Positions 17,545 to 51,898 of a stretch of 57,609 nucleotides of DNA are shown piece after piece. Origin of the DNA: Globomyces pollinis-pini. Lineage: Eukaryota > Chytridiomycota > Chytridiomycetes > Rhizophydiales > Globomycetaceae. Position 1 is the stretch's first letter; each line of letters begins with the position of its first letter. The translations under genes and the position numbers were made by a program. The stretch spans positions 9,125 to 66,733 of the forward strand of contig MU621164.1 in assembly GCA_025399215.1 (NCBI GenBank), given 5' to 3'. A model generated the notes under the pieces. The model did no database searches, was not told the origin of the DNA, and saw only the letters and a list, made by a program, of their open reading frames with translations.

Positions 17545-18738
17545 ATGCAATTGGCTTCATATTTTATCTTAAGTTCAGTGGTTTTGGCTGCTCCATCGTA
17601 TTATTCTGGGCAACCAGCACCAATACCTGCTGCTGCTCCTTACAATCACCAGTATAAAGAAGTGCCTTCTCACAACTACCCATATAACCATCCTTACCAA
17701 CCTCCAGTAGTCACCACTGCTGCACCTGTAATTATCACACCACCTCCTCAAACCGCAGCTCCAATAGTCGTTGTCCCAACTCAAACAGCTGCTCCAGTGA
17801 TCTACACACCTGTATCAACCGCGGCTCCTGTCATTGTCACCCCTTGTGAAACTGCTGCTCCAATAATCATTGTTCCAACTCAAACAGCTCCTCCAAACAT
17901 TTTCACTCCTGTCTCAACTGCTGCTCCAGTATTTATTACTCCGTGTGAAACTGCTGCTCCAATCATTGTAGTTCCAACACAAACTGCTCCTCCAAACATT
18001 TTCACACCTGTGTCAACAGCTGCACCAGTTATTGTCACTCCTTGCGAAACAGCCGCACCAATTATTGTTGTTCCTACTCAAACAGCTGCTCCAATCATCT
18101 ACACTCCTGTCTCAACTGCGGCTCCAATCTTGATTACTCCTTGTGAAACTGCTGCTCCAATTGTCATTGTCCCAACTCAAACGGCAGCTCCAATCATCTA
18201 TACTCCTGTTTCAACTGCAGCTCCAATATTTGTCACTCCTTGTGAAACCGTTGCTCCAATTGTCATCATCCCTACCCAAACTGCTGCTCCAATCTTTATC
18301 ACTCCGGTAGAAACCGGTGCCCCAGTAGTGATCACCCCTCCACCAGTTATGACCACTGCTCTTCCAATTGGAACTACTCCATGTGATACTCCTCTTCCAG
18401 TCTCCACCACTCCTTGTACTACCGCACTTCCAGTTGTTACTACCGCAGCCCCAATTGTAACTCCGGGTGCTTATGAACAACCAGCCATTACTCCGGGTGT
18501 AGTATCTGAATTGCCAGCAATCACTCCAGGTGGTTATGGCCAAGAACCAATCAGCACTCCAAACCCTTATGGAAAAGATGGTACAGTAATGGGATTAGGT
18601 GATAGTCCAGCACAGACTACTACCGCTGCTTCTGCCGCTGTAGTTGAAACCAATCCTTTGTATCCTAACGTGAAGAGTAGTGCTATGACCTATCAATCAT
18701 CTTCATTGCTTGTCAGTGTTCTTCTTGCTTTTCTATAA
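17545..18738 (+). CDS. Thr/Pro-rich GPI-anchored wall mucin, copy 1
   Basis: A 397-residue single-exon secreted protein. The signal peptide MQLASYFILSSVVLAAP precedes a short Tyr/Pro/His-rich region. A long repeat region (about residues 55-290) follows, built of 33-residue units, each made of three 11-residue subunits such as TAAPIIVVPTQ, TAAPIIYTPVS and TAAPVIVTPCE. Each unit therefore carries one Cys. A degenerate Thr/Pro region follows, then a Ser-rich stretch and a hydrophobic end (SSSLLVSVLLAFL), as for a GPI signal. Heavy O-mannosylation and wall cross-linking are expected. Its two relatives follow on the same strand. Function beyond wall or adhesive structure cannot be inferred. Confidence 0.88.
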   Translation: MQLASYFILSSVVLAAPSYYSGQPAPIPAAAPYNHQYKEVPSHNYPYNHPYQPPVVTTAAPVIITPPPQTAAPIVVVPTQTAAPVIYTPVSTAAPVIVTPCETAAPIIIVPTQTAPPNIFTPVSTAAPVFITPCETAAPIIVVPTQTAPPNIFTPVSTAAPVIVTPCETAAPIIVVPTQTAAPIIYTPVSTAAPILITPCETAAPIVIVPTQTAAPIIYTPVSTAAPIFVTPCETVAPIVIIPTQTAAPIFITPVETGAPVVITPPPVMTTALPIGTTPCDTPLPVSTTPCTTALPVVTTAAPIVTPGAYEQPAITPGVVSELPAITPGGYGQEPISTPNPYGKDGTVMGLGDSPAQTTTAASAAVVETNPLYPNVKSSAMTYQSSSLLVSVLLAFL

Positions 18739-19872: not shown

Positions 19873-21003
19873 ATGGGTAAAGTATTCTACAGTTTGGTGT
19901 TGAGCGCGGTTGCGATTGCAGCTCCTTCTTACAATGAAGTGCCAATTGTAACTCCTCCCTGTGACACTCCTGTACCAACTACAACCCCATGCTCTGGTGG
20001 ATCTGTGGTAACATCAGATGTCCCAGTTATTCCAACTCCAGGCGCTCAAACAGCAACAGTACCTTGTGGTTGTGAGATCCCTCCAGTCACTACTGCCGCA
20101 CCAGTTATTGTTACTCCACCGTGTCAAACTGCAGCACCTATCATAGTAGTTCCAACACAAACTGCAGCTCCAATCATCTACACGCCAGTTCAAACCGCTG
20201 CTCCAGTTATTGTCACCCCTTGCGAAACTGCAGCACCAATCATCGTGGTTCCAACTCAAACTGCTGCTCCAATTATTCACACCCCGATACAAACAGCTGC
20301 TCCAGTTATTGTTACTCCTTGTGAGACAGCCGCTCCAATCATCGTGGTACCTACTCAAACAGCCGTACCAATCATATATACACCTGTATCTACTGCTGCA
20401 CCAGTCATCGTCACTCCTTGCCAAACTGCTGCGCCAGTAGTGATTGTTCCTACCCAAACTGCCGCTCCAATCATCTACACACCAGTTCAAACTGCTGCTC
20501 CAGTTATTGTCACCCCGTGTGAGACGGCAGCACCCATCATTGTTGTCCCTACTCAAACTGCCGCTCCGATCTTTGTTACTCCAGTTCAAACTGCAGTCCC
20601 AGTCGTGATTGTCCCAACTCAAACTGCACTTCCAGTTATCAACACTGCTGCACCCGTTGGAACAACTCCATGTAACACTCCAGCTCCCGTCGCGACCACC
20701 CCATGTAACACTCCAGCTCCTGTTGCTACCACCCCATGCGCAACTGCTAATGCCCCAATCATCACTCCAGGAGTCAACATCGAACAGCCTGCCATCACTC
20801 CAAACAGTCCAATTGGCGGTCCAATCATCACTCCAGGTGCTTATGCTGACGGGTACGCTCCAGTAATGGGTCTGGATGTTACCAATACGGCTGCTGCTTC
20901 CTCCACCGAAACCAATCCTGCCTATCCATCCATCAAAAATAGTGCCGAAACCAGTGGATTTCAAACAATTGCATTCATCACGCTTTTGATGACCTTATTC
21001 TAA
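19873..21003 (+). CDS. Thr/Pro-rich GPI-anchored wall mucin, copy 2
   Basis: A 376-residue single-exon paralog of the gene at 17545. The signal peptide MGKVFYSLVLSAVAIAAP leads to a short Cys-containing N-terminal region (TVPCGCEIPPVTTAAP). The same 33-residue repeat follows, with subunits TAAPIIVVPTQ, TAAPIIYTPVQ and TAAPVIVTPCE. Next come shorter Cys repeats (TTPCNTPAPVA) and an ending shared with copy 1 (TNPAYPSIKNSA) before the hydrophobic GPI tail (FQTIAFITLLMTLF). The repeats make long open frames on the opposite strand, which are artefacts. Repeat number differs from copy 1, as expected from slippage or unequal recombination. Confidence 0.88.
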   Translation: MGKVFYSLVLSAVAIAAPSYNEVPIVTPPCDTPVPTTTPCSGGSVVTSDVPVIPTPGAQTATVPCGCEIPPVTTAAPVIVTPPCQTAAPIIVVPTQTAAPIIYTPVQTAAPVIVTPCETAAPIIVVPTQTAAPIIHTPIQTAAPVIVTPCETAAPIIVVPTQTAVPIIYTPVSTAAPVIVTPCQTAAPVVIVPTQTAAPIIYTPVQTAAPVIVTPCETAAPIIVVPTQTAAPIFVTPVQTAVPVVIVPTQTALPVINTAAPVGTTPCNTPAPVATTPCNTPAPVATTPCATANAPIITPGVNIEQPAITPNSPIGGPIITPGAYADGYAPVMGLDVTNTAAASSTETNPAYPSIKNSAETSGFQTIAFITLLMTLF

Positions 21004-21742: not shown

Positions 21743-22660
21743 ATGATGCAAGCTACTCTCCTTTTTGTTCTATCCTCTGTTGCTATCGCTGCTCCTTATG
21801 ACAACAATGATGCAAATGTCATTGTCAAAGAAGCAACTGAAGTTATTGCAATTGCTGAACTAGAAAAGAAACCTTGTGATTCTACCACTGTTGCTCCAGT
21901 TCCAGTTATTCCAACTACTCCTTGTGACACCAAAACTACTGTTGCACCTATTCCTGTTGTTCCAACCACCCCTTGCGATACTCAAACTACTGTTGCACCT
22001 ATTCCTGTTGTTCCAACCACCCCTTGCGATACTCAAACCACTGTTGCACCAATCCCAGTGATCCCAACTACTCCTTGCGATACTCAAACTACTGTTGCAC
22101 CAATCCCAGTGATCCCAACTACCCCTTGTGACACTCAAACCACTGCTGCACCTATTCCTGTTATCCCAACCACTCCTTGTGATACTCAAACCACTGCTGC
22201 ACCTATCCCTGTTATCCCAACCACTCCTTGTGAAACTCCAATCATTACTACTGCCAACCCAATTCCAGTCATCCCAACCACTCCTTGTGAAACTCAAATC
22301 ATTACCACTGCCAATCCAATCCCAGTCATTCCAACTGTTCCATGTGAAACCCCAATTATCACTACTGCCAACCCAATTCCAGTTATTCCAACCACTCCTT
22401 GTGATACTCAAATCATCACCACTGCCAACCCTATCCCAGTCATTCCAGCTACCCCTTGCGAAACTCCAATCATCACCACTGCTTTACCAATCGTAACTCC
22501 AGGAACATACGAAGGTTATGGTTCCAACATTGCCCCAGAACTGACATTGGGAGCTGATTATGCCCAAGCTACTAACCCAAGTTACGGAAGCATTGTTAGT
22601 GGTGCTAGCGCTACTGGTATGTCTTTGATGGTATTTGTTGCTGGTATCCTTGCATTGTAA
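21743..22660 (+). CDS. Thr/Pro-rich GPI-anchored wall mucin, copy 3
   Basis: A 305-residue single-exon protein related to the two upstream genes but with its own repeat. After the signal peptide (MQATLLFVLSSVAIAAP) and an acidic spacer come about seven 17-residue units of the form TTPCDTQTTVAPIPVVP. About five variant units with TTPCETPIITTANPIPVIP follow, one Cys each. The end TNPSYGSIVSGA and the hydrophobic SLMVFVAGILAL match the GPI-type tails of the other copies. The spacing of Cys (17-19 residues, against 33 in copies 1 and 2) is the main difference. A wall or adhesion role is inferred. Confidence 0.88.
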   Translation: MMQATLLFVLSSVAIAAPYDNNDANVIVKEATEVIAIAELEKKPCDSTTVAPVPVIPTTPCDTKTTVAPIPVVPTTPCDTQTTVAPIPVVPTTPCDTQTTVAPIPVIPTTPCDTQTTVAPIPVIPTTPCDTQTTAAPIPVIPTTPCDTQTTAAPIPVIPTTPCETPIITTANPIPVIPTTPCETQIITTANPIPVIPTVPCETPIITTANPIPVIPTTPCDTQIITTANPIPVIPATPCETPIITTALPIVTPGTYEGYGSNIAPELTLGADYAQATNPSYGSIVSGASATGMSLMVFVAGILAL

Positions 22661-25690: not shown

Positions 25691-26563
25691 TCACGCCTGA
25701 GACTTCCCAAAAACATTCACAGTGGAATGTTTATGATTAGTATTAAAGGTACGGGTAGGGTATGTTTGGGATGTTGAACCAGATAATGAACTCTGCTTCA
25801 TCATCAACATATCTTTGGTAGTATGCATATCAAACAATAGAATAATAGGATACGTGCCTTTAATAGCCCATGCCAAGTTGTTCAAATTGTTCAATGAAAC
25901 ACCAGATGGATTGTAAGGTATGATTTGTCCCAGAATTACAATTATAAAAGTGTTGATAACTAATATCATGATACGCGGGATAGATGATTTGAACAAGGTT
26001 TTCAAAATCCCATCCACTGCCTGTGACCCAATACTTACCGTGTTTTGTATTAATAATCCAAAAACAATCAAATCGGTCAACCCCCAAATTAAAAACGCAT
26101 AAGAATGTGCTTTCCCAATAGCAACGTTATTCAAAGTATTATCTGTAAATCGAACTCTACCGATATTAAAACGTAGTAGTGCAAAAATAATCAAACAGAC
26201 TCCTAAGACCATATGTAAAGCTTTTTTCATTTTCTGATTAGCAATCACGGTTTCAAGTTTGATTGTTGAATAGAGTACAGTAGATGTTTCGTTGATGATC
26301 CAATTGACTTCGTTCAATAGAAGTAACAGTGACCAACTTTCCGCTTTACAACAACCGTATTTTGCAATATAATAGTTTTCAATTAATGTTCCCAAAAAAC
26401 CAGAAATACCGTGAGCTAATAGGATTTTCCATAGATACTTTTTGTTTGATACAAAGTATCCATAAATGATAAAGATACAACCAACAGTTTGTACCCAAGC
26501 AAGTCCGCTCTTCGTGTATGATTCTAAAAAAAGTGTGCCAAAATCGGTATGTAGAGTCGACAT
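25691..26563 (-). CDS. Seven-pass membrane protein, family copy 1
   Basis: A 290-residue single-exon protein with seven predicted helices (residues about 20-38, 42-65, 75-103, 114-135, 152-176, 193-215, 222-246) and a hydrophilic Ser/Thr-rich tail. Conserved family signatures shared with the genes at 28536 and 30750 are YTKSGLAWVQTVGC, LLAHGISGFLGTLIEN, NEVNWIINETSTVLYS, RFNIGRVRF, AHSYAFLIWG and AWAIKGTYPIILLFDMHTTK. No known receptor or transporter motif is recognised; the topology would allow a GPCR-like role. The closest copy (28536-29387) lies about 2 kb away in divergent orientation with the tRNA-Asp between them. Confidence 0.82.
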   Translation of the reverse strand: MSTLHTDFGTLFLESYTKSGLAWVQTVGCIFIIYGYFVSNKKYLWKILLAHGISGFLGTLIENYYIAKYGCCKAESWSLLLLLNEVNWIINETSTVLYSTIKLETVIANQKMKKALHMVLGVCLIIFALLRFNIGRVRFTDNTLNNVAIGKAHSYAFLIWGLTDLIVFGLLIQNTVSIGSQAVDGILKTLFKSSIPRIMILVINTFIIVILGQIIPYNPSGVSLNNLNNLAWAIKGTYPIILLFDMHTTKDMLMMKQSSLSGSTSQTYPTRTFNTNHKHSTVNVFGKSQA

Positions 26564-28535: not shown

Positions 28536-29387
28536 ATGTCGACTATTGTGACAAAACCTGACTTTGGAACACTTTTTTTAGAATCATACACGAAAAGTGG
28601 ATTGGCTTGGGTACAAACTGTTGGATGTTTGTTTATCATTTATGGATATTTTGTATCAAACAAGAAATTCTTATGGAAAGTTCTATTAGCTCATGGAATA
28701 TCTGGATTCTTGGGTTTGGTTATCGAAAATTTGTTTATTGCAAAACAACAATCCAACAAGGCGGAAAATTGGGCATTCTTACTCTTGATTAATGAAGTGA
28801 ATTGGATCATACATGAAGCAACTACCGTCTGGTACTCTAGCGTCAAGTTGAGTGCGATTATTACGAATAGTATGCACAAAAAGGTTCTCAATGGGATTTT
28901 GGTTACATGTTTGGTGATCTTTGCATTACTTCGTTTGAATATTGGATACTTACGGTTTCGTGATAACACCACGATGAATCCAAGTATAGCTACTGCTCAT
29001 TCATATGCATTCCTTATTTGGGGTTTTGCCGATTTAGTTATCTTTGTCTTATTGATTCAGAATACTATTAGCTTAGGTTCTCAATCAGTTGATGGTTTAC
29101 TGGGTACGCTATTCAAATCATCCATTCCTAGAATCACAATCCTAGTATTGAATACGTTTTTAATTGTTGTTCTTGGTCAACTATCAACTCCATTAAGTGT
29201 TGGGATGAATAACTTGAACTCTTTGGCTTGGGCAATCAAGGGAACGTATCCAATTATATTGATGTTTGATATGCATACCACCAAAGATATGTTACTGATG
29301 ACCCAAGAAAAGTTGTCCAATGGTCTTACGACTTCAATGAAACCTAGGAAAACTGTGAATATCTTTGGAACCGGTTCATCAGCATAA
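28536..29387 (+). CDS. Seven-pass membrane protein, family copy 2
   Basis: A 283-residue single-exon paralog of the gene at 25691-26563. The first 60 residues are nearly identical (DFGTLFLESYTKSGLAWVQT then FIIYGYFVSNKK). The same seven helices and signatures follow: NEVNWIIHEATTVWYS, AHSYAFLIWGFADL and AWAIKGTYPIILMFDMHTTK. The tail is shorter but shares the C-terminal NIFG block (copy 1: NVFGKSQA; here NIFGTGSSA). The pair looks like a recent inverted duplication. No function is recognised. Confidence 0.82.
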   Translation: MSTIVTKPDFGTLFLESYTKSGLAWVQTVGCLFIIYGYFVSNKKFLWKVLLAHGISGFLGLVIENLFIAKQQSNKAENWAFLLLINEVNWIIHEATTVWYSSVKLSAIITNSMHKKVLNGILVTCLVIFALLRLNIGYLRFRDNTTMNPSIATAHSYAFLIWGFADLVIFVLLIQNTISLGSQSVDGLLGTLFKSSIPRITILVLNTFLIVVLGQLSTPLSVGMNNLNSLAWAIKGTYPIILMFDMHTTKDMLLMTQEKLSNGLTTSMKPRKTVNIFGTGSSA

Positions 29388-30749: not shown

Positions 30750-31673
30750 TTATTCAATTTGATGCGATTTTTCAACAGGTAAGGTGACCTTACGTGTATC
30801 GTTGACTGTCGGTTTACCTTTGATACTCCCTATTTCACTTTTAGCCAATTGAGACTGAAAATTATCACTCGCACCAGTATTTTTCCGATCCATCATATCT
30901 TTCGTCAATTGTATATCAATCAAAAGTAGCATCTATAAGATTAGATTTTGAACACGTTTTACAGGATATGAACCTTTAATAGTCCAGGCAATGGTATTTA
31001 TGTTTGAAATAGTTGGAGATGGGTCTGAAAACTGTCCCACAATAGAAATGACAGCGGTATTGACAATCAATACACTCATTCGTAATATAGATGAGCGTAA
31101 TAAGGTGATAAACACGGAACGATGTTTACGCAGATGTTCCACTGTATTGAGAACTAACAAGAATGCTAAAATCAAATCAGCTACTCCCCAACAGATGAAA
31201 GCGTATGAATGTGCTCTGGCAATATTAAACGACATTGTGGTATTTTCTATAAATCTGTAATATCCAATCATCACTCGAAAGCTTGTAAATGCTAGAAATA
31301 TGATACCCATCATTCCTCGAATTGTTGTTAATGTTCTTTGGTGAAGAATAACAATTTCTAATTTGAGTAACGAGTATAACACTGTGGAGCTTTCATGACA
31401 AACCCATGATATTTCGTTGATGGCTAAAAGGAATGGCCAGTATTCATCTACGCAGCATGATTTTTTTGATATGTAAATGTTTTCAAGTAAGGTACCAATC
31501 ATTCCGGAAGCTCCATGGACTAATAATACACGCCATAATGGTTTGTTTGAAGATGCAATTAAACAGATATACAGAACATAGAAACATGAAGCGGTTTGTA
31601 AAGTTGCTAATCCACTGTTGGAATAGGAGTGAATCAATTCATATGCAAAATCGTTTGGCATTTCAAACCTCAA
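30750..31673 (-). CDS. Seven-pass membrane protein, family copy 3 (diverged)
   Basis: A more distant member of the same family: 297 residues in two exons, with a 30-nt intron inside the last helix at the codons for GSYP. Shared signatures are YSNSGLATLQTASC, LLVHGASGMIGTLLENIYIS, NEISWVCHESSTVLYS, RVMIGYYRF, ARAHSYAFICWGVADL and AWTIKGSYP followed by MLLLIDIQLTKDMM. Copies 1 and 2 have no intron at this site, so copy 3 gained it or they lost it. The tail is Ser/Lys-rich. It is transcribed away from NUP98 across a 378-bp gap. Confidence 0.8.
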
Positions 31674-32051: not shown

Positions 32052-35000
32052 ATGTTTGGAGGAGGATTTGGAAATACAAACAATACCCAACCGAATTTAT
32101 TTGGAAGTAAGATCAGAGGAAGGTTTAATGTTTAGATAGTATTGGAATCTATCACTAATCAACTTAGATAGTAATTGTTTTGATTGCATTTGATGTTAGA
32201 TAGTATTCTTACCCACTGGTTTTAATATTTAGGTATGCGATCGGAATTAATATTTTAGGTAATGTTTGGATTGGATATCTGATAGCTTTTAGATAGTATA
32301 TTATATGCTTTTTTGTTGATTTTTAGATGGTAAGTTCACTTGATTTGATATGTTAGCGACTCCAGCTCCTACCACTGGGTTTCAATTCGGACAGCCAGCT
32401 CAGCAACAACCTGCATTTGGTGGGGCAGGATTTGGAGCTGCTCCGACAACTACAACGGGTTTTGGAAGCACCCCATTTTCGTCCACTCCTTTTGGTGCAT
32501 CTGGATTTCAAGCTCAACAACCGGCAGCACCAGCGTTTGGAGCAAATACTAGTACGTTTGGTGGATTTGGTCAGACAGCTCAAAATAATCAACCAAATAC
32601 TCAGAATACTGGTTTTGGTACTTTTGGTGCTCCAACTAATACTGCATTTGGTTCAACAGCTCCTTCTGCTTTTGGGGCACAACCTACAGCTTTTGGTGGT
32701 CAAGCGAACAATGCTAATGCTCAGACGTCTCAAACTGTAAATAACGGAACTGGTAACCCTGCATGGACAGAGTCAAAGGAAAGAGGTTTGATTTTTATAG
32801 TTTATCTTAGAACAAAATGCCGCTTTAAACCAATATACTCACTATCAAGCCATTTCTGCAATGCCTCAATACAAAAACTGGTCATTTGAAGTAAGTTATA
32901 TCCCTCTTTTCATAGATCTAATCATACTACTTTTTGATTGATCTAATCGCACTACTCTGTTTATACCGCAACTTTCTGTTCCAAATTAACTTGCAGGAAC
33001 TGAGATTTCAAGATTATCAAATGAATAAAAAAGGACCTAATGCTGCGCAACCTGCAGGTGGCTTCGGTGCTGCAACTAATACCTTTGGACAGCCATCGAC
33101 CAATACTTTCGGTGCACCCAGCAACACTGGCTTTGGAACAAACACAAATACTGGATTTGGTGCTGCAACAAATACTACTGGTGGCTTTGGTACAAACACT
33201 GGAACTGGATTTGGAGCTACATCTACCGCTTTTGGTGCATCGAATACTACTGGTGGATTTGGAACAAGTAATACCAACACTGGATTTGGTGCGACAAATA
33301 CTTCAACCTTTGGAGCCCCTGCAAATACTTTTGGTGCAACAAATGCGTTTGGAACCACCCCAGCTACAACCGGTTTTGGAGCAGCACCCACAACAAGCGC
33401 ATTTGGAACCACCCCAGCTACCACTGGGTTTGGCGCGCCTGCTGCTAATACTGGGTTTGGTGCTGCCCCTGCTACCACTGGCTTTGGTACCACAAATACT
33501 GGATTTGGTGGTACTGCTGCTACAAGTGCTTTTGGAGCAACCAATACTAATACAGGATTTGGTTTTGGTGCTAAACCCGCAACCACTGGTTTTGGTAAGT
33601 TTATGTATCTCTAATGCAAGGTGCATCCGCTACAACAACTGGCTTTGGTGCTGCAAACAATGCGTTTGGTAAACCTGCCACAACAGGATTTGGAACTGCC
33701 ACAACTCCGGCCACAACTGGTTTTGGTGCACCTGCAGCTACAGGGTATCTGAATGGTATTTTAACTCTTAGCTTTGGGGCTCCTGCGACCACAGGGTTTG
33801 GTGCTCCTGCAGCCAATACATTCGGTGCACCATCGACTACACCTGCCACTACTGGCTTTGGAACAGCTACAAATGCCTTTGGAGCGAAACCTGCTAGTAA
33901 TATTTTTTTAATTTATTTTTGTAGCCAGTGGATTTTCTTTTGGATCAACACCAGCAGCTGCACCAACAACGAATACATTTGGGCAACCAGCTACTAATTC
34001 TTTGTTTGGAAATACGAATGCAGCACCTACAACTGGTTTTGGGACTGCACAACCTGCTTTTGGAGCTAACACTGGGTTTCAAACTCAAAATACAGGTTTA
34101 TTTGGCAATACTGCAGCTAAACCTGCAACCAGTAAGTTATTATTCCCACTTAATTCTCTTTTTAGCTACTGGATTTGGATTTGGTGCATCTACCACTGCT
34201 ACACAGCCTGGATTTGGCCAAACGCAATCTATGTTTGGTGCAGCACCTCAGCAACAGCAAGGTCCAGTATTGCATGCTTCGTTAGATAAACCATACGGAT
34301 TTAACCCAATATTACAAAAGAGTACAAATGCTCCCCCACCTGCCAATGCCCCTGCACTACTAACTCCAAAGGAAACCAAACAACGTCCAACATTGAATCC
34401 TAACTTCAAAGTCACACCACGATCGACATCTCAAATTAAGCTTCGTGGGGTTGCTGCACCAACAACTGCACCTGCTTTGGCCGAAAGTTACCGAAACCAA
34501 ATTGGTGCAGCCCAAACTCCAAGTAGTAGGAAATCGTTACATATTTTGGATGGATCTCCACGAGATGTTATTGCCCTCGGATTGGATACACGATTTACAC
34601 CAAGACGTACCATTAAGCGATTGGAGTTGGATGATCAACCTAGTATGTTAGAAACACCAAGACGTGATCCAAATGAGCGTAGTGTTACGTTTGATCCAGC
34701 GTTAGAGGATGCTGCCGCAAGTGTTGTTAGTCAAAAGAAGAATCCTGTCAAACAGTTGGACTTTTTAGATGAACAAGCAACACCAATCAGATCTAATCTA
34801 GTTGAAAAATCGCCACAAAGTATTGGTAAATCCCCAACTGGTTCCATTACTGGAAAGAGATATACTATGAAACCCTCATTGTTGAGTTTAATGGAAATGT
34901 CTGATTTAGAATTATCGGCAGTTAAAAACTTCACAGTGTCTATCACTGGTATTGGATCCATTACATTTTTGGAAAAGGTGAACCTACTGGATGCATCCCC

Positions 35001-35301
35001 AACTCGTAACCGTTCAGGACTATCCAAAATTCCAGGTGATATAGTGTTAATTGAAGATCAATGTATCACTGTGTATCCAAACGATGCCGAGAAACCTGTC
35101 ACTGGCTTTGGGTTGAATGTGAAAGCACGATTAACATTATGGAATTGTTTCCCACGGGATAAACGAACCAATGAAATCATTGAAATCAATGATCCCCGAC
35201 ATTTCAAACATGTTGAAAAACTACGTAAGATGGTAGATACAGAATTTATTGATTATGATAATGAAACTGGAGTTTGGGTATTTGAAGTGGATCATTTTTG
35301 A
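32052..35301 (+). CDS. NUP98: Nucleoporin NUP98 (Nup116/Nup100 type, without NUP96)
   Basis: An FG nucleoporin of the pore channel that binds the RNA-export factor RAE1/Gle2. The ATG at 32052 begins MFGGGFGNTN. FG/TGFG repeats (32357-34250) are interrupted at about 32810-33040 by a GLEBS motif (HYQAISAMPQYKNWSFEELR then FQDYQMNKKGP). A linker leads to the autoproteolytic-type domain (KPSLLSLMEMSDLELSAVKN to NETGVWVFEVDHF). The stop codon follows directly after the final His-Phe, the exact position where NUP98-NUP96 precursors are cleaved (HF|S). The NUP96 half is absent here. Six introns of 25-106 nt follow the unusual intron zone at 32107-32356. Length is 917 residues if that zone is one intron, or 922 if its microexons are included. 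Confidence 0.93.
32107..32356 (+). other. Serial array of eight minimal introns with 3-nt microexons in NUP98
   Basis: Directly after exon 1 (ending TTT GGA A), the 250 nt parse without remainder into eight GT-AG segments: 32107-32135, 32139-32167, 32171-32199, 32203-32232, 32233-32258, 32259-32292, 32296-32326 and 32330-32356 (29, 29, 29, 30, 26, 34, 31 and 27 nt). Each begins GTA, has a YTRAT- or TTAAT-like branch site near its 3' end and ends in TTAG. They are separated by ATA, ATA, ATA, nothing, nothing, ATA and ATG. The interiors are not alike, so this is not a simple satellite. Every gap is 0 or 3 nt, so any combination keeps frame; full inclusion adds five Asn codons and an Ala. Removal as one 250-nt intron also keeps frame. 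Confidence 0.65.
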
Positions 35302-41070: not shown

Positions 41071-41735
41071 GTATGAGATCATTGCTAATATGAAGAAAAC
41101 AAACACTAATTGATTTGAATAATCAGCTATCTTCCTTCAATAAGTTTTCAAATCAACGGTTCTTGAAAAAACGAGTCAGTGTAAAGCTTTTCTTGGATCT
41201 AAAATCAGACTTGGACCTGTAAGACATGTATATTGACTCGCTGTAGCATCTTTAAAAGGATTCAGAAATTAAGGAAAGCTATGGAAGGTAGTCGGAAGCA
41301 TCAAGCAGCAATGTCTGTATTAGGAGAACGTCCAGTGTTGGAAGATGACTAAACCATGTATGTACAATAAACAAAACTGGAAATAGTGGACTACTGTTGT
41401 TATTGGGAGTAGTTTCTTTCATCTGAACGGTCAAAGACAAAGCCTGTCACCAATAATTACTTGAGATACTATACCGACCAATATTCGCGTGTCATAATGT
41501 AAATGCTTGTATATCTATCATCACACACATTTATCTTGAGCAACTCATCGTGTCACTCCTCTCATTGGCCTTCCATGAAACTAAAACATGATGGTGGCTT
41601 GAGGTGCACGAACGAATTAGGGAAAAGCAATTGAAATGAAATTTTAGAATTAGAAAACTAGAAGCGTTTATGTTAACTGCTCAATTACCTGAACCGAATA
41701 CCGTATCGGATGGTCGTGATTTAAAGTAATCGTCA
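41071..41735. other. Intergenic interval upstream of the NRPS
   Basis: A 665-bp stretch; its last part should be the NRPS promoter. No clear TATA box or regulatory repeat was found, and there is no supported gene. Confidence 0.4.
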
Positions 41736-44700
41736 ATGGATCCTTTTAACTGTCTTAGCGAATTCAAAAAGTTACAATCTGACCTTTATTCACAATATGG
41801 TCCTCAGTTGGGAATGGTTTCTGAAGATTTTCACATTAATCCATGCAATGAAAAGCAAACTGACTTGTTCAATAAATCAAAGGCGATAAATCATATTGGA
41901 TCCTTCAGAAAATATTTCATTTGGAATCTACCTGATGATGACTTTGAAATCAAATTTAAATCATCATGGAATAAATTGATTCAAATGAATGAGATTCTGA
42001 GAACATGCTTTGTTCAATCATCAAATGAATTATACCAATTCGTTATACCTTACAAGAATGGGAAACAAATTCAATCAACCGAAACAGAACTCGATGAATA
42101 TTTACAATTGGACTTGAAGACTCCGTTTGTTTTGGGAGACAGTCCATGGTGTAGATTAATGATTGTAGAAAATGGATTTGATAAACACTTGGTTTTTTCA
42201 ATTCATGAATTATTAGCCGATGATTGGACTTGCAGATTGCTTTTAAGCATGTTGGAAAAATTGGTCAACACAACTGTAGTATCTGATGTTGTTCATGTCA
42301 AGACTGTTGTTCCAATAGCTGAAAAACAACATGACTATATGATCAACTATTTTCAATCATACAGTCCTAAAAGTATTTTTGTAGTTCCTCCTGTCAAAGG
42401 GACGGAATCGGAATCCAATAACTTTGAATCTATAAAATGGAGTTTACAAATCACCAAATCCAAATTGGAACTAGCATCAGTTAATGTTCATACAGAACCA
42501 GATACTCTCTTGAAAGTAACTTGGGGAATGTTGCTTCAAATATTTACACAATCAGATGATGTTCTCTTTGCTTCAAACTATCAATTGAATGATATTCCAT
42601 TCGAAGGTGTAGAAGTGTAATTTCCTATTGATTCATTAACGTCTAGACTTAACCAAAACCTCATGGTGATGCCTTATCGTTTAAATATGGCCAACCAAAC
42701 AGTATCTTCATTAATGGAACAATTCAAAATCAACTCCAAGGACAAACAATATCATGTCATTGATGCTGATCAATTAAAGGCGTACCATGACATTGAAACT
42801 TTATTTAATTATACAAACTCTACGGATAACTTTCTAAAAACCAGTTTAAACTACGTGTTTAAAAATTACAAAAATGGTTTACCAAAGTTTAAAATGAATA
42901 TCGAAATCACTTCAACTGATAATTTCTTGAATGTGTTGATAAATTATAACAAAAGTTATATCTCCAAATCTTACGTGATCAGATTGATTGAAATCTTTGA
43001 TGAATTGTTATTAACAAATGTATCCAGTTGTCTAATTAGTAATGTATCTGGACCCATTCAAAAGAAATTTAAATTGCCTAGACGTCAACGACAAAGAATA
43101 TTGGAATTTGGAAAAGGAGTTTCCAGAAAATTGGCTTTTCAATGCATCCATTACGTTTTTGAACGTATGGTTGAAATTGATCCTGGTATCATTGCTGTGG
43201 AACATGGTATGGAATCAGTCACATATGGAGATTTAAATCATCGAGCAAATCAACTTGCTGCTCTTATTCTCGCCAATCGTTTGAAAGTGGGTGATAACGT
43301 TGCTATATTTACAACAAGATCGATAGAAATGGTTGTTGCTATCCTAGCCGTTTTAAAAGCTGGTTGTTCAGTTTTAATTATTGATATTCATTTGCCGTTG
43401 GAAAGAATTGAAGTTATGTTGGCTACTGCCGATAGTAAACTTATTCTTTGCCATCCTAGTATTGATATTGATGATTTTCCAATGTTTTCCAAATACAACA
43501 TCTGCTTAATTCAACAAAATTCGGAAAATATGGATTTTTCACCTCCTCTAATCTCATCACTTACCAGTGCTTATGTGACTTTCACGTCTGGTTCTACCAG
43601 TAGGCCAAAGGGTGTAGCTATTTCCCATCAATCATTGGTAAATTTTTGCACTTCAAACTTGTACAATGGATATAATATTTCAAAAGATAAACGTGTTGCT
43701 CAAGTCAGTTCCATTACTTTTGATATATGTATTGCAGATGTGTTATCTACTCTAACGAACCAAGGAACTCTGGTCTTGACTGTCGACGATGACTACCTCA
43801 CTGCCATCCAAAATGCTGATCAAGTGGTTATGACTCCAACACTAGTATCAAAATTCAGTCCTTCAGACTTTCCAAACCTAAAACGCGTAGTTCTTGGAGG
43901 GGAAAAGTTATCAATGTCTATTGTAAATGAATGGACTAAGGCAGTTACAGTCATCAATGGTTATGGACCAACTGAAACTACTCTTTGTTCATCAACCGCT
44001 GAAATGAAACCAGATCAAATGATCACTATTGGACATCCTATTCCAAATACCAATTTTTACCTAGTAGATAAGCAGTTGGAACTAGTCCCAATTGGAGTTC
44101 CTGGCGAATTAGTTATTGGAGGGTTAGGTATCGCATTGGGATACCTGAATCAACCTGAATTGACTGCCGAGAAGTTTATAAACAATCATTTTACAAATGA
44201 TGGAACCGAAATGTTTCGAACTGGTGATTTGTGTCGGTGGACAGAAAATGGAGAGATTGAACTTATTGGTCGTCAAGATGATATGATAAAACTCAAAGGA
44301 TATCGTATTGAATTGAATGAAATTTCATCAATTGTATTGAATTATCCTCATATACATTCATGTGAAATTCTGGTAAATGACAATAATATCATTGCCTATG
44401 TAACACCAACAAAGATCAACATAGAATTATTGCGAAGCTTTGTAAGTGATCGACTACCTCATTATATGTTACCATCGGTATACATTGCCATGGACAGTTT
44501 CCCAATGACCATCAATGGCAAGGTATATAAACTTTATTAACAATTGGCTCAGGTTGATAAACAAGAATTATCCAAGATTTCGATTCAAAATGATTTAGAA
44601 ATTCCTCAAACAGAAATTGAAATGAAATTGGCAATCATTTGGAGTGAACTTTTGAATATTGACGTATCTAAAATCGGAAGGCATTCTTCTTTCTTTCAAT

Positions 44701-47700
44701 TAGGAGGTGATTCATTAAAGCTCTTACGCTTATCGACAATGATCCAGGAATTGGACATTCATTTAACTACAAATGATATCTTCAAATATTCAACCTTGGC
44801 TCAAATGGCATCAATGAAAGAGTCGAATGACACACCTATCGAAATCAAACCCCTTTTAGTGTCGTAATTGATTATTACTGATTAATCATTTAGGTCTGAA
44901 ATTATACATGAAATTTATTCATTACACATTGCACCACACGAAAGTAATGTCGATTTCGATATATATCCAGCAACTCCTTTACAGTCAACTATGATAGTAA
45001 ATAGTTTGAAATCTCCATCAATGTATTTACACCAATACATATGGAAAACCAATGTTGATTTGAATGCTGGAAAGCTTGAAGAAGCCTTGAATCAAATCAT
45101 TTCATGTCATGCAATATTGAAAACTCGTTTTGTCACCACTCGTTTTGGTATCTATCAATTGGTACCACCTGAATTACACTATAAGATTCATATTGAAGAT
45201 GATTTAGAATCGTTCTTAAGTATTGATCGTACCAATGGGTTTCAAATACAAGATCAAAGTTGGTTTAGATTGACGCTAATTCAAAATGGAAAGTCTTATT
45301 CTCATGTAGTATTGACCATTCATCATGTATTATTTGATCATTGGAGTTTAGATACATTCGTTAACCAACTATTTGGTGTTTATGAAGGTGGAATCATTCA
45401 ACAACAACCACATTTCAAAAGAGTTGTGGAATATATTCAATCTCATGATTTTAAGAGGCTGAAAGATTTTTGGAAGTCATACCTGTCAGGATACCAATCA
45501 AACCTCGAACTGAATGATAGATATCTTTATTTTAATGCAACTGATGGGTTTGAATCTCTTCAGCTTGAAAAATCTTTACGTTTAGATCAATTAAACGATT
45601 TTGCATCTCGCCATCGAGTTACAGTGCCAACATTGGTGAAAACTGCTTGGGCCTTAACGTTAAGTTCATTTATGCAAACAAATGATGTTGTGTTTAGTAA
45701 CTTGGTGTCTGGAAGAGATTTGCCAATTGACCGTGTAGAAAGGTAAAAATATGATTGTTGACAATAGTATTGTTGGATTGTTAACCAATAATATCCCTTG
45801 TCGATTTCAGATTGATCGTAACCTTACAATGGCAAGTTTATTAAAGAATGCACAAGAAGATTACTATTCCGTGTTACCACATTCACAATGTAGTAATTCA
45901 AGCATAAAACGGTGGATTGGAAAGGATAAGTTGTGTGATACTATGTTTGTTTATCATAATCAACCACTACATGACTTTAATACTGTAACTTCAGTTACAT
46001 TGGTGTCTGAAAATCAACTGATGGAAGAAATATTCGAAGGTTATTCATTAGTCGTTATCGCAGAACCTCTTGACGGCAATTTATCGATTAATTTAGCCTT
46101 CTGTAACATTGATTCCAGTTTGGTGAAAAACATTGGATCTTACTTGGTCAAATTATTGGAAAATTTAATAGTCAATGATTACAATCAAGTTAAAGTGTCT
46201 CGAGTACTGGCTGATTGTTTGGTTGATCATGAAAAATTGTTGACAATGGGTAAAGGGATATCTAAAGTGTTACCATACAAATGTGCTCATCATGGTATTG
46301 AAGAAATCGCTGCATCAAACCCTGACGATGTTGCTATTGAAGAGAGCGATAAAAGGATTTCTTATGGAGATTTGAACAGTAGAGCTAATCACCTTGCAAA
46401 TCATTTGATCTTACAAGGCTTACAAATTGGACAAGCAGTCGGAATAGTGACAACTAGATCAATTGAAATGGTGATAGCTTTTTTGGCAGTTTTAAAAGCT
46501 GGTGGTGCTATTATGGTCATTGACCATACCTTACCAGCAGATCGAATTCAAACCATGCTTCAAATTTCACAATGTCAATTTTTGTTATACCATTTTGATA
46601 TTCCAATGCATAGATATTCCGTTTTTGATGATCTGAAATGCTATCAAATTGACATGAAGTTCAATGACAATACACCATTTAAACCAATTCTCATTCCAAC
46701 TCTTAGTGGCGCTTACATTGCATTTACGTCTGGCTCCACTAGTAACCCAAAAGCCGTATTAGTAACTCATCGTTCTTTGGTCAATTTCGTAACATCTAAT
46801 GGTTATAATGGTTACGATATTGCAAAAGGTACCCGTGTTGCACAAGTTGGTGCTATCATTTTTGATATGTGTATATCTGATGTACTTGCTACACTTACTA
46901 ATAATGGGATATTAATTCTCACTGTTGAAAATGACTACTACACTGCCATCAGCAAATCAGAACAAGTTGTAATGACACCAACATTGATTTCAAAATTTAA
47001 ACCTTCCGACTTTCCTAATTTAAAACGGTTAATATTGGGAGGTGAGCTGTTACCTCAAAAAATTGTAGAAGAATGGTCACATCATGTCACTTTAATTAAT
47101 GGTTATGGTCCATCAGAAGCTACGTTATGTTCATCTACTGCTGTAGTTCAAAGTGGTAAGTGTATTACCATTGGGAAACCCATTCCTAATGTTAACCACT
47201 ATATTGTCGATAAGTATATGCAATTGGTTCCGATTGGTGTTTTAGGTGAACTGGTTATTGGGGGCGCTGGTGTAGCTCAAGGTTACTTGAATCAACCCGA
47301 GTTGACATTTGAAAAGTTTATCTTAAATCACTTTACGAACGATGGTACGGAAATGTATCGAACTGGTGACATTGGTCGTTGGACAGAAGATGGTCAAATT
47401 GAAATTCTGGGCCGAATGGATGATATGGTTAAACTGAAGGGATATCGTATTGAATTGGACATGATATCTTATGCTTTGACTTCACATTTGGATGTTGATA
47501 CTGCTGCTGTATGGGTAAACGATGACATTCTTCTAGCATGTATAACTCCTTCCACTGTGGATGTAGAATCAGTTCGTAGTTTCGTTGCTGATATGTTACC
47601 CCATTATATGATTCCTGCAGTAATCATTACCATGGAAGCGCTACCAATGAACGCTAATGGAAAGGTACTGCATTATACTTTACTAAAGATAGATTGATAA

Positions 47701-50700
47701 AAAACAATTATCCCAAATTCAATATGCTAAAGAATTGGAAACCCCAGTAACAGTAGAAGAGCACCAAATGGCTGGGTTATGGAGTGAAATACTTGGGGTT
47801 GACGTTTCAATTATTGGAAGAAATACATCCTTTTTCGAGTTAGGAGGTGATTCATTGTTAGCAATCCGCTTAGTAGTGGAATCAAAGAAGAAAGGATTCG
47901 AGTTAACCAACTCTATTATATTTAAAAAACCCACCTTAATTCAGCTTGCTACTTATAAAGCTATCGGCATCGACATCCAGTCGTCTCTTGTATCGTAATC
48001 ATTTTCATACACTCAAATTAGAGCGGAAATTATCCATCGCATTTACAAAAAGTATACAGAAAAGTATGAACAGCTTATTAGTTTCGATATTTATCCAGCT
48101 ACTCCACTGCAATCATCAATGGTTAATCGAACTCTACTATATCCAAATGCGAATGTTACACAGATTGTATGGAATACGGTTGAGAACCCTGATATTCACA
48201 CGATGGAACTTGCTTTAATGCATGTAGTGAATTGTCATGATATTTTAAAAACACGGTTCGTTATAGTAGATGATGTGGTTTACCAAGTTGTACCAGATAA
48301 GGGAAATTGCGAAGTAATAATCGGAAATTGCTTAGAAACATATTTAAAAGAGGATAAACTCTGTGGTTTCAATTTGGATGATCGGAACTGGATTCGAGTT
48401 GCATTCATTGGCGATGAAGAGGAAGCAGTATATTCACATATTGTTTTTACAATTCATAATGCTCTATCTGATGGTTATAGTATGGAATCAATCATTAACG
48501 ACATTTTCAATGCTTATTATGGAAACGCGATTGATAATCATCAATCTTTCAAAACGGTGGTTGAGATGATTGAATCAAAAGACCAGAAGCATTTACAGGC
48601 ATTTTTAGAATCGTATTTGCACGAATATACTCCTCCACCTGGGTTTAGTAAATCAGATGATGCCATAAAACGTGTTGATAATTCAATGCTTGAAATTCCA
48701 AGTTTAGTCACCATTGATGAATTGATCACAGTATCGGCAAGCCTCAATATTGATATTACAAGTCTTTTGAATGCTGCTTGGGCTTTAACATTGAAAGTTT
48801 ACAAACAACAAGATGATGTTGCATTTGCCCGATTGGTTTCTTACAGAGATGCCCCCGACAATGAAAATAGGTACTTGAATTATAAATTCTTAATATTAGT
48901 GTTGTGGGAATGATGCTTAATCATGCACCTTGCCGTATGACTGTCCGTGACTATAAAACCATTGATGAACTATTACATATGGCTCAGGAAGATTCAATCG
49001 ATGTACTACCATACACATTCTGCAACCTTCAAGAATGGAATGGCCATCACTCCATTTCAGAAATATTTGACACCCTACTTATATATGAAGATAAGATCTT
49101 TGAAGATGAATCAAAATCTGTGAACAAGGATTTACTGGTTTATCCACACGACAATGTTGTAGAGCCATTATACAATTTTGATAATTTTGATATTCAAGTT
49201 CATATTCTTCAGCGTGACCGATTGGTGACCAAAATGATCTATAATGGGGTGAAAGTAGATTTTAATATTGTGTCTGGAATGGCGATTTATTTCAATTATA
49301 TTCTATCAGAAATTGTTAACCCTATATTCCTCACAAAGAAAATCCAAGAATTAAATGTAATCCCAGAAGAGAATGACATGTTGATTCAATTCGGAACTGG
49401 GCCATATAGAGAAATATCGCATCAATGTACACACTACGCATTTGAAGATATGGTAGAGATTGATCCAGACGTAATTGCAGTGGAATTTGATGGAGAATCA
49501 ATCACATACGGGGAATTAAATGAACGCGCCAATAATCTTGCAGCACAACTAATGGCTCGCGGAGTTAAAGTTGGAGATTTTGTTGCTGTTTTAACAATCC
49601 GATCCATTGAGATGATTATTGGGTTCTTTGCTGTTCTAAAAGCTGGAGCTGCGTTCCTACCAATTGACAGTAACTTGGACCTCGAGCGCATATTATTCAT
49701 GCTGGAAACTTGCTCTTGTCAAACTATTCTAGTACATCATGAGTCCGTGGATACGTTAGAAAGTATTAATATGTTTCTAGACATCTTGGATCTGCATGAA
49801 ATTGTCCCTGGTATTGTTTTTGAACCACCAACTATTCTTTCATTCAGTCCCGCTTATGCTATATTCACATCTGGATCAACTGGAACACCAAAAGGTGTCT
49901 CAATTAGCCATATTGCACTATCCAACTATGCATGCGTAATTCCAAATGTATTGGAAGTAAAAAAAGGTACTCGAGTAGCACAAGTAGCATCAATCTCTTT
50001 CGATATCTGCATCAGTGATATTTTTAGCACCCTTTGCTGTCACGGGACATTAGTTCTTCGTAACGATTTTGAATTTGAAAGTGCGATACAAAATGCAGAT
50101 ACACTACAAGCAACACCAACGTTTATCTCCAAGTTAAATCCTGATGATTTCCCATCATTGCGTAGGATCAACCTAGGTGGCGAAATCTTACAACCTCATC
50201 TAGCAGCAAAATGGTCTAACAGAGTTACGCTTGTCAATGGGTATGGACCAACAGAGACAACTATAACGTCTTCATTCGCTGTTATAAAAGAAAAGGATGT
50301 AATAACAGTAGGTAAACCAATGCCAAATACTGTTCAATATATTGTGGATAAGAACATGCAATTGGTGCCTGTTGGTGTACCGGGTGAACTTTTAATTGGA
50401 GGAATGGGAGTTGCTTTGGGGTACATAAATCAACCTGGTTTAACAGCGCAAAAATTTATTGACAATCGATTCCTCAATGATGGATCTAAAATGTATCGTA
50501 CTGGTGATATTTGCCGTTGGACTGCCGATGGGAACATTCAAATTTTGGGTCGTATGGATGATCTTGTTAAAGTGAATGGCTATCGAGTTGAATTAGATGA
50601 AGTGTCATTCGCAATCGCTAAACATCCAGACGTGACCGGTGCATCTGTTTTATTGAAAGAAGACCAACTCTTTGCTTATATCACTCCTCAAACAGTTAAT

Positions 50701-51898
50701 TTACATTCTGTTCTTGAGTATGTAACAGATCGTTTACCATCGCATATGATCCCTGCCGTTTTTGTCACCCTTAATGTGTTTCCAATGAATGCCAATGGAA
50801 AGGTAATTTATAATTGAATTAAAACTTTAGATTGACAAGTATGAGTTAGCTAAAGCTCGAATCCCAACACCTATTGAGATACCAGCCAATGAAGCAGAGA
50901 AGACTTTAGCGGAAATCTGGAGTACATTATTAAATGTTGATATAACAACCATTGGTAGAGAAACTACATTTGCAGAATTAGGAGGCGATGAGGTGAAAAT
51001 CAATCAACTTGTAACTTTATGTCAAGAATTTGGATGGAGGATAACAACATTGGATGTAACCAAATTCCAAACTTTGAAAAAGATTTCATTATTGAAACCT
51101 AAATTTGAAATAAAAGAAGAGATCTATGATTTGAATATGATTATGGAGATGGAAAATTCAGGTAATGATCAGTATTTGGTAAACAAATTAGATTATGATG
51201 AAGCATCTCCTGGTAATATCGAACTGACCAATCCTCTTTTCCGAGATGAATTCAAATCCAGACCTATTTCAGTAGTTTGTTTACACGGTGAAGGATCATG
51301 TGAATCAATATTCCGAAATCAACTCTCATACATCAAGAAATATTTAGGTTATCATGTACAGTTCCATTTTATTGAAGCATTAAATGAAACTGAAAGCTTC
51401 TTGTCTGATCACTATGGAACTCAAGTTTATGAATGGTGGTCAGCAGCTGATGGTAATGCGAAAGTGTATGAAAGTATTCGATATGTGACTGAACATTTGA
51501 AAATTATTGGACCAGTTGATGCCATTCTTGGATTTTCTCAAGGTGCCAGTCTAGTAGAATTATTGGATCAAATTTCAAGTAGAAATTTAATTGAACGAAC
51601 ATGGGAATTCAGTATTCTGTTCTCTGGTATTCCATTAAACACATTTGAATTCCCCGAATTTTATAACGATGAATATCCTGATCCTTTAACGACCAAAGCG
51701 ATTGTTCTATCAGGAGCAGGTGAACGAGGAGGATTATATGATTCATCGGAAATGATTGCTAGATATAGTACAACAAACAGTTTGTTTTTGGAACATACCA
51801 AAGGTCATGAAATCCCTCAGTATGACAACTTCATTAAGCAGTTTGCAGAACAGTTACTGAGATTCTCCGTGAAATCTAGATTTGAAAAAATGATTTAA
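41736..51898 (+). CDS. Trimodular nonribosomal peptide synthetase, C-A-T-C-A-T-C-A-T*-hydrolase
   Basis: Nine exons, with eight introns of 25-30 nt (42617, 44523, 44864, 45743, 47665, 47995, 48871, 50803), join exactly to 3,311 residues. Module 1: C with degenerate motif HELLADD near residue 157, A (TSGSTSRPKG, NGYGPTETT, FRTGDLCRW, NGKVDK), T (LGGDS near 969). Module 2: C (HHVLFDH, near 1164), A (TSGSTSNPKA, NGYGPSEAT), T (LGGDS near 1989). Module 3: C (HNALSDG near 2184), A (TSGSTGTPKG, NGYGPTETT), T with LGGDE near 3006, so no phosphopantetheine Ser. The end (3090-3311) is an FSH1/OVCA2-like alpha/beta hydrolase with CLHGEG, GFSQGA and KGHEIP as nucleophile and His motifs. All A-domain core motifs are intact. 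The product is unknown. Confidence 0.93.

Follow-up and report, generated by a model that had tools for sequence, protein, structure and literature searches.

The gene encoding the nucleoporin NUP98 in the chytrid fungus Globomyces pollinis-pini carries, directly behind its first exon, a 250-nucleotide (nt) stretch that reads as eight mini-introns placed end to end. It lies in the window, as the whole 57,609-nt stretch of DNA analyzed here is called (contig MU621164.1, positions 9,125 to 66,733; C75:9125-66733 in the genome that was searched, which comprises 18.5 Mb in 459 contigs). All NUP98 features are on the forward strand and are numbered from the first letter of the window. The identity of the gene had been proposed in an earlier, sequence-only reading of the same DNA, and a domain search bears it out: an open reading frame (ORF) further downstream (33928 to 35301) contains a Nucleoporin2 (Nup98-96 autopeptidase) domain at residues 310 to 457 (E = 7.2e-40). 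In addition, translation across two ordinary introns of the gene, a single mini-intron of 25 nt (32786 to 32810; from reading and the gene model) and a long one of 106 nt with no unit structure (32891 to 32996; from reading, in the frame WSFE|ELRFQDY), gives ISAMPQYKNWSFE|ELRFQDYQ, a stretch that we take to resemble NUP98.

Exon 1 (32052 to 32106) runs from the start given by the gene finder at 32052 and consists of MFGGGFGNTNNTQPNLFG plus the first base of the next codon. The array then occupies 32107 to 32356, and both direct reading and a scripted re-parse divide it into eight GTA..TTAG units with no remainder. Units 1 (32107 to 32135, branch motif TTAAT), 2 (32139 to 32167, CTAAT), and 3 (32171 to 32199, TTGAT) are each 29 nt long, and each is followed by the word ATA (at 32136 to 32138, 32168 to 32170, and 32200 to 32202), which would be a 3-nt exon. 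Unit 4 (32203 to 32232, 30 nt, TTAAT), unit 5 (32233 to 32258, 26 nt, TTAAT), and unit 6 (32259 to 32292, 34 nt, CTGAT) are fused without any spacer, so that AG|GT joints connect 4 to 5 and 5 to 6; units 5 and 6 were also picked up by the genome pattern search described below. Another putative ATA exon (32293 to 32295) separates unit 6 from unit 7 (32296 to 32326, 31 nt, TTGAT), and a putative ATG exon (32327 to 32329) separates unit 7 from unit 8 (32330 to 32356, 27 nt, TTGAT). The branch motifs come from a motif scan. Exon 2, which by reading begins ..CG ACT CCA GCT... and encodes FG repeats, extends from 32357 to 32785. The outer coordinates, unit lengths, and spacers are the same as those of the sequence-only reading.

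GTA starts and TTAG ends are found in all eight units, as is a YTRAT branch-like motif whose A lies 7 to 11 nt before the end of the unit; two of the eight have a further YTRAT, at 14 or 17 nt from the end. All three signals had been described before, and they stand. Could a chain of this kind be produced by base composition? A parser that accepts GTA..(T/C)AG units of 22 to 38 nt with spacers of 0 or 3 nt recovered the full eight-unit parse in 0 of 20,000 dinucleotide shuffles of the array, the longest chain being three units, in 21 of the 20,000. About 14% of shuffled units carry YTRAT, and shuffling the interiors 20,000 times never placed YTRAY in 8 of the 8 units. The interiors themselves are barely alike, with a mean z of 0.73 versus 0.25 for unrelated introns and a z above 2 in 5 of 28 unit pairs versus 8 of 150 pairs of unrelated introns, which agrees with the earlier description of differing interiors with kept splice signals. 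Successive copies of a 10-mer, TTAGATAGTA, lie 32, 32, and 93 nt apart; the 32-nt recurrence reported previously is that of the first copies. Despite the dissimilar interiors, the five spacers are nearly uniform (ATA four times and ATG once).

How do the units compare with the ordinary introns of this genome? Introns were predicted with a purpose-built gene finder that had the window as its training set. A run over the window that left out the array and the 106-nt NUP98 intron predicted 39 introns in 23 genes; 38 of these are 24 to 35 nt long, and the remaining one, of 199 nt, is doubtful. When the window is taken together with 31 loci, 99 of 114 predicted introns measure 18 to 37 nt. Array units of 26 to 34 nt are therefore ordinary in size, in keeping with the sequence-only reading. 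They also have the marks of U2-type introns, namely, GT..AG ends, a YTRAY near the 3' end, and a host U2 small nuclear RNA (snRNA) that keeps the consensus branch-recognition stretch GUGUAGUA. A model search of the genome for U1 snRNA gave no match, but it gave none in control genomes either.

Fused mini-introns are found well beyond NUP98. The genome was searched with the pattern YTAGGTA-N15..30-YTAGGTA-N15..30-YTAG, which stands for an initial YTAG with two complete units behind it. There were 78 matches, versus 17 for the reversed pattern and 9 when GTA was scrambled to ATG. Seven of the nine scrambled-control matches belong to one dispersed repeat, the near-identical copies of which contain TTAGATGAAAAAATTTCAATCTAATATTAG (C14:120529, C61:13622, C199:31571, and C200:22135). 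The 78 matches merge into 50 places, and the DNA was examined at 39 of these, including NUP98 and one place (C31:78834) that was left unparsed. The parsed chains are 2 to 12 units long. Among the long introns that the pattern missed, two parse as two-unit arrays: one of 57 nt in a PheRS-beta-like gene and one of 56 nt in the window (5539 to 5594, reverse strand; 30 plus 26 nt, joined as ATAG|GTAC), the latter placed by the gene model, outside the pattern search, in a predicted gene of unassigned function. The former, made of 26 plus 31 nt, is at the L060 locus (C365), whose gene, read as PheRS beta, has a three-unit array elsewhere.

If these chains are introns, their removal should restore conserved proteins. 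For eight genes, the array was removed in silico and the spliced protein was aligned to relatives in the PDB; in 0 of the 8 does a gap fall at the joint. The alignment is ungapped over 211 residues for Ran/Gsp1 (array at LVL|VGDGGTGKT), 140 for Rpt6/PSMC5 (L035, C54:48090), 127 for a UBE2G1-like protein of the UBE2G1 family, 76 for a UBC8/UBE2H-like protein, and 68 for a SAMHD1-like protein. ATG3 shows a one-residue gap some residues downstream of the joint, a PHYHD1-like protein is gapped elsewhere than at the joint, and the MARK-like kinase, in which twelve units totaling 365 nt sit at NVKIT|DFGLSN, has one gap far upstream. In Rpt6, a first array of three units is separated by a 15-nt exon (QLEVK) from a second array of two units. 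The five residues of QLEVK belong to the ungapped Rpt6-PSMC5 alignment, so that the 15-nt exon is needed and the introns on either side of this very short exon would have to be spliced apart. A V-ATPase proteolipid gene with a three-unit array encodes a protein 84 to 85% identical to those of Boothiomyces macroporosus and Entophlyctis helioformis over 97 to 98% of its length, and in two further array genes, RRM and FYVE domain matches each cross a joint. Not every locus could be joined. The scripted coding join, run on 27 loci, gave none for L014, L026, L033, L037, L039, L040, L042, and L048, of which L014, L037, L042, and L048 were joined afterwards by hand; several joined loci have weak gene scores. 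In a further 12 loci, there was no coding join at L054 (which coincides with L040), L058, L061, and L062 and a poor one at L057. L023 and L024 in the script output are one and the same array.

Are the internal splice sites of these arrays kept? Each pattern match fixes just three YTAG and two GTA, leaving all remaining features free, and all 28 further junctions of 14 curated arrays read AG|GTA. When the remainders, the parts of each array that the pattern leaves free, were shuffled and reparsed, a parse was recovered in 0 of 4,000 trials for PHYHD1, ATG3, and UBC8, in 0 of 5,000 for the kinase, and in 19, 82, and 374 of 4,000 for Myb, SAMHD1, and UBE2G1, respectively. Single-unit remainders always parse (4,000 of 4,000, in seven arrays) and carry no weight, and the L036 array was left out of these counts, its first unit starting with GTT and so falling outside the strict parser. 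YTRAY, which is not part of the search pattern, is present in 26 of 42 internal units; the shuffle expectation is 22%, and the observed count was reached in 0 of 2,000 shuffles. Single introns have the motif in 53 of 96 cases.

Taken at the level of NUP98, we think it probable that these 250 nt form a serial intron made of eight complete, individually spliceable mini-introns that would be removed separately and that it belongs to a genome class with 2 to 12 fused units. A broader proposal is offered more tentatively, with confidence a little short of even. It holds that up to twelve complete introns of 24 to 40 nt, fused AG|GT in core genes such as those for Ran, Rpt6, and the MARK-like kinase, would be removed singly by intron definition, with zero-nucleotide exons between them, and would multiply by tandem duplication. 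NUP98 would be the case in which the joints have turned into codons, with splicing setting the length of an asparagine (Asn) run in an FG nucleoporin. We infer five elements of this scheme from the DNA: removal unit by unit, the order of removal, intron definition, the Asn products, and neutral growth.

In mechanistic terms, a mini-intron would duplicate in tandem to give an array, the copies of which then diverge. Each unit would tend to keep its 5', branch, and 3' sites because it is recognized across its own approximately 29 nt (intron definition) and is separately removed. Two spliceosomes, given their size, cannot fit on introns that lie 0 to 3 nt apart; such close neighbors would therefore have to be removed one after another, whichever comes first. 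Each time a unit is cut out, an intact GTA would be left, at the joint where the spacer is zero or 3 nt downstream in NUP98, and the next unit could therefore be cut in turn. With zero-length joints, the choice of donor and of downstream acceptor within the array should make no difference to the mRNA after removal of every unit, and growth of the array would thus be neutral and invisible to the protein.

What would the NUP98 array give? Each nonempty joint consists of three in-frame bases. Full stepwise removal is predicted to read GGA AAT AAT AAT AAT AAT GCG ACT (G-N5-A-T; LFG-NNNNN-A-TPAP), that is, Asn5-Ala, and skipping of joints would yield fewer Asn residues. Removal in one step is predicted to read GGA ACG ACT (G-T-T; LFG-T-TPAP), with a single Thr and the array in frame as one 250-nt intron. 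The claim that all outcomes stay in frame agrees with this reading frame. Coding for Asn would seem to explain the constancy of the ATA spacers better than donor strength does, since the bases most commonly found ahead of donors in this genome are A-A-G, not A-T-A.

The most serious competitor to stepwise removal, and one that we consider unlikely, is that each array is a composite intron whose outermost donor and acceptor alone are used, the internal sites being silent remnants of tandem duplication. Several observations weigh on that side. Unit-free longer introns are predicted in the same genes, of 106 nt in NUP98 and 160 nt in Ran, and several more of 70 to 110 nt are predicted, some from weak gene models. 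Because of the 106- and 160-nt examples, one-step removal of the 250-nt array is conceivable, and the array would then leave as one in-frame intron. (The same two introns rule out a hard ceiling on intron length as the cause of the arrays.) Near-identical units in some arrays look like recent duplication, as a composite intron would have it. Internal units also score below single introns on splice-site weight matrices, with a 5' score of -0.03 versus 0.50 (shuffled, -0.15) and a 3' score of 0.40 versus 1.08, the latter still above the -0.15 of shuffled units. The NUP98 3' ends do no better than shuffled array units (-0.14 versus -0.15 over positions -14 to -5, compared with 1.08 for single introns), though all eight of these low-scoring ends still have the branch motif. 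Since a duplicated unit inherits its signals, some of their conservation reflects common ancestry, and the counts treat related units as if they were independent. Zero-length arrays give identical mRNA by either route, and an internal unit, being flanked by an upstream acceptor and a downstream donor, might formally play the part of a cryptic recursive-splicing (RS) exon. Nevertheless, silent sites should decay in arrays as diverged as those of UBE2G1, CstF64, SAMHD1, and UBC8, yet in these four together with the kinase (some neighboring units of which reach a z of 4.6), 27 of 28 joints read AG|GTA, some of them fixed by the search pattern. Internal branch motifs are likewise still enriched in these five mostly diverged arrays, YTRAY being found in 12 of 23 internal units versus 5.0 expected (7 of 5,000 shuffles). 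Finally, the Rpt6 pair of arrays must splice around its 15-nt exon. Stepwise removal is thus the likely route, preferred to one-step removal on the conservation of the splice sites and on the branch-site evidence.

Also to be set against our proposal are the searches for the 3-nt-spacer form and for single joints. The sequence-only reading had called for a genome-wide search for chains with spacers of 0 or 3 nt. With zero spacers, the search gave the 78 matches at 50 places; with 3-nt spacers, the pattern gave 4 matches genome-wide versus 16 in the control, with three of the 4 in the NUP98 chain itself and one odd match on C122. Another shorter or 3-nt-spacer pattern gave 3 matches versus 3 for its reversed control, and TTAGATAGTA followed by TTAG 17 to 27 nt on gave 8 matches, four of them in NUP98, versus 21 in the control. 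The four outside NUP98 are L001, L002, L007, and L008, and by reading, L002 is a chance match in coding sequence. As such patterns show no excess over controls, the 3-nt-spacer form rests on the NUP98 array itself, which is the sole convincing 3-nt-spacer chain found by them; the form is infrequent, the zero-length joint being the usual one. A single-joint pattern with CTAAY upstream showed no excess either (77 matches versus 95 in the reversed control), so that a pattern by itself does not allow arrays of two units to be counted. One of the origins suggested in the sequence-only reading, insertion time and again at an ATA target, finds no support in the 3-nt-spacer and TTAGATAGTA counts, though no test was aimed at it.

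A separate observation concerns L001 (C19:112761), where, by reading, an ATA within positions 1474 to 1539 is a possible 3-nt exon between mini-introns of 31 and 32 nt in a RING-CH-like gene. The gene model gave no join there; the protein would read ..YHS-YICRVCRS with the ATA and ..YHS-LCRVCRS without it.

Where do the arrays come from? The units at C68 (L040 and L054) are near-identical and 27 nt long, the arrays of Ran and PHYHD1 have identical neighboring units, and PHYHD1, ATG3, and Myb show clear unit-to-unit similarity over part of their arrays, as does C68. The near-identical units are evidently tandem duplications, which was among the origins suggested beforehand. UBE2G1, CstF64, SAMHD1, and UBC8, on the other hand, have no detectable unit similarity (adjacent z, -1.1 to 1.6). 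We infer that arrays of identical, similar, and unrelated units represent one process at different ages. The lack of mutual similarity in those four arrays is also what one would expect if introns had been inserted at the AG|GT joint several times independently, whether by reverse splicing or by a mobile intron with a preference for proto-splice sites, but the other arrays show the within-array similarity that duplication predicts, and we regard this origin as improbable. More improbable still is that the arrays are intronic minisatellites, repeats with a period of about 28 nt grown by slippage unrelated to splicing, in which AG|GT appears at the joints merely because of the segment that happened to be copied. 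The near-identical 27-nt units at C68 and the identical neighbors in Ran and PHYHD1 fit a minisatellite at the DNA level. Slippage accounts for the origin of arrays, however, and not for their persistence: unit lengths in the curated arrays vary from 24 to 40 nt without breaking the GT..AG register, and the interiors diverge while the ends do not. Both of these origins would be compatible with stepwise removal.

Several known systems invite comparison. In the organelles of Euglena and others, twintrons compound several introns that are removed successively; these are nested and of the group II or III type, unlike the arrays described here, which are nuclear, spliceosomal, and serial. Recursive splicing has mostly been studied for very long introns with cryptic exons. 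Drosophila ratchet-point sites are reported to lie in long introns and to need a cryptic RS-exon (PMC8605326). The arrays are like that system in having juxtaposed AG|GT inside the intervening sequence and in that stepwise removal would regenerate a donor; acceptor and donor are juxtaposed at NUP98 joints 4|5 and 5|6, where AG|GTA resembles a recursive splice site as had been suggested, and at each of the 28 junctions that the search left free in the 14 curated arrays. They are unlike the Drosophila sites described (PMC8605326) in that the units, each complete and about 29 nt in length, are directly consecutive, up to twelve in number, with no separate exon after the joint. As for a long host intron and an RS-exon, the host stretch here is short and the next GT..AG unit is immediate, an internal unit being formally readable as an RS-exon of about 29 nt.

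Stwintrons (PMC9024468 and PMC7138796) are fungal intervening sequences in which one U2 intron sits inside another and splits one of the outer intron's splice elements, the two being removed consecutively. Our arrays share with them the make-up of more than one U2 intron in a complex fungal intervening sequence and the consecutive removal that we propose. They differ in having 2 to 12 complete units side by side rather than nested: each unit has an intact GT..AG, and the joints are AG|GT or AG-ATA-GT, not the AGT overlap described for the [D1,2]/[A2,3] stwintrons. Human UBC offers another parallel, in that its tandem AGGT sites can be used as donor or acceptor, and its 228-nt coding monomers may be kept or removed (PMC10809524). 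There, too, AGGT is in tandem register with a repeat and the frame is kept whichever site is used. AGGT stands in register at our zero-length joints, while 5 of the 7 NUP98 joints carry 3 nt instead, and the repeats are here mini-introns, many with branch motifs, that would be removed entirely. In Cryptococcus, new introns are reported to be created by expansion of DNA repeats (PMC2395259). Repeat expansion would be the source in both fungi; what would set Globomyces apart is that the unit which multiplies in place is the intron itself, without intervening exons. Overall, the arrays appear to work like recursive splice sites and lack the nesting of stwintrons, and they may best be called a variant of composite introns with recursive splicing. 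Among the open-access full-text matches listed, none reports complete mini-introns in serial arrays, a set that most of the subscription literature lies outside, so their novelty is unproven.

The window holds other features besides the array. Three predicted proteins (17545 to 18738, 19873 to 21003, and 21743 to 22660) have an N-terminal hydrophobic leader followed by long TAAPI..TP(C)-type repeats, giving them the look of secreted, repeat-rich surface proteins. Three related multipass membrane-like proteins with similar N-terminal sequence, as judged by reading, are encoded at 25691 to 26563, 28536 to 29387, and 30933 to 31673; the second, the one of the three that was scanned, has no Pfam match. 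A run of ORFs from 41670 to 51898, in which that at 42663 to 44540 has an AMP-binding domain and is followed by similar ORFs, looks like a nonribosomal peptide synthetase-like gene split by several introns of 27 to 33 nt.

It is the genome-wide class of arrays, more than the single case of NUP98, that gives these observations their importance. If the proposal is true, the spliceosome could ratchet its way through an intervening sequence by intron definition alone, and the arrays would provide a clear test of the minimum distance between two splicing events. With identical, similar, and unrelated units, they may also represent dozens of frozen stages of intron multiplication, which would make intron gain testable within one small genome.

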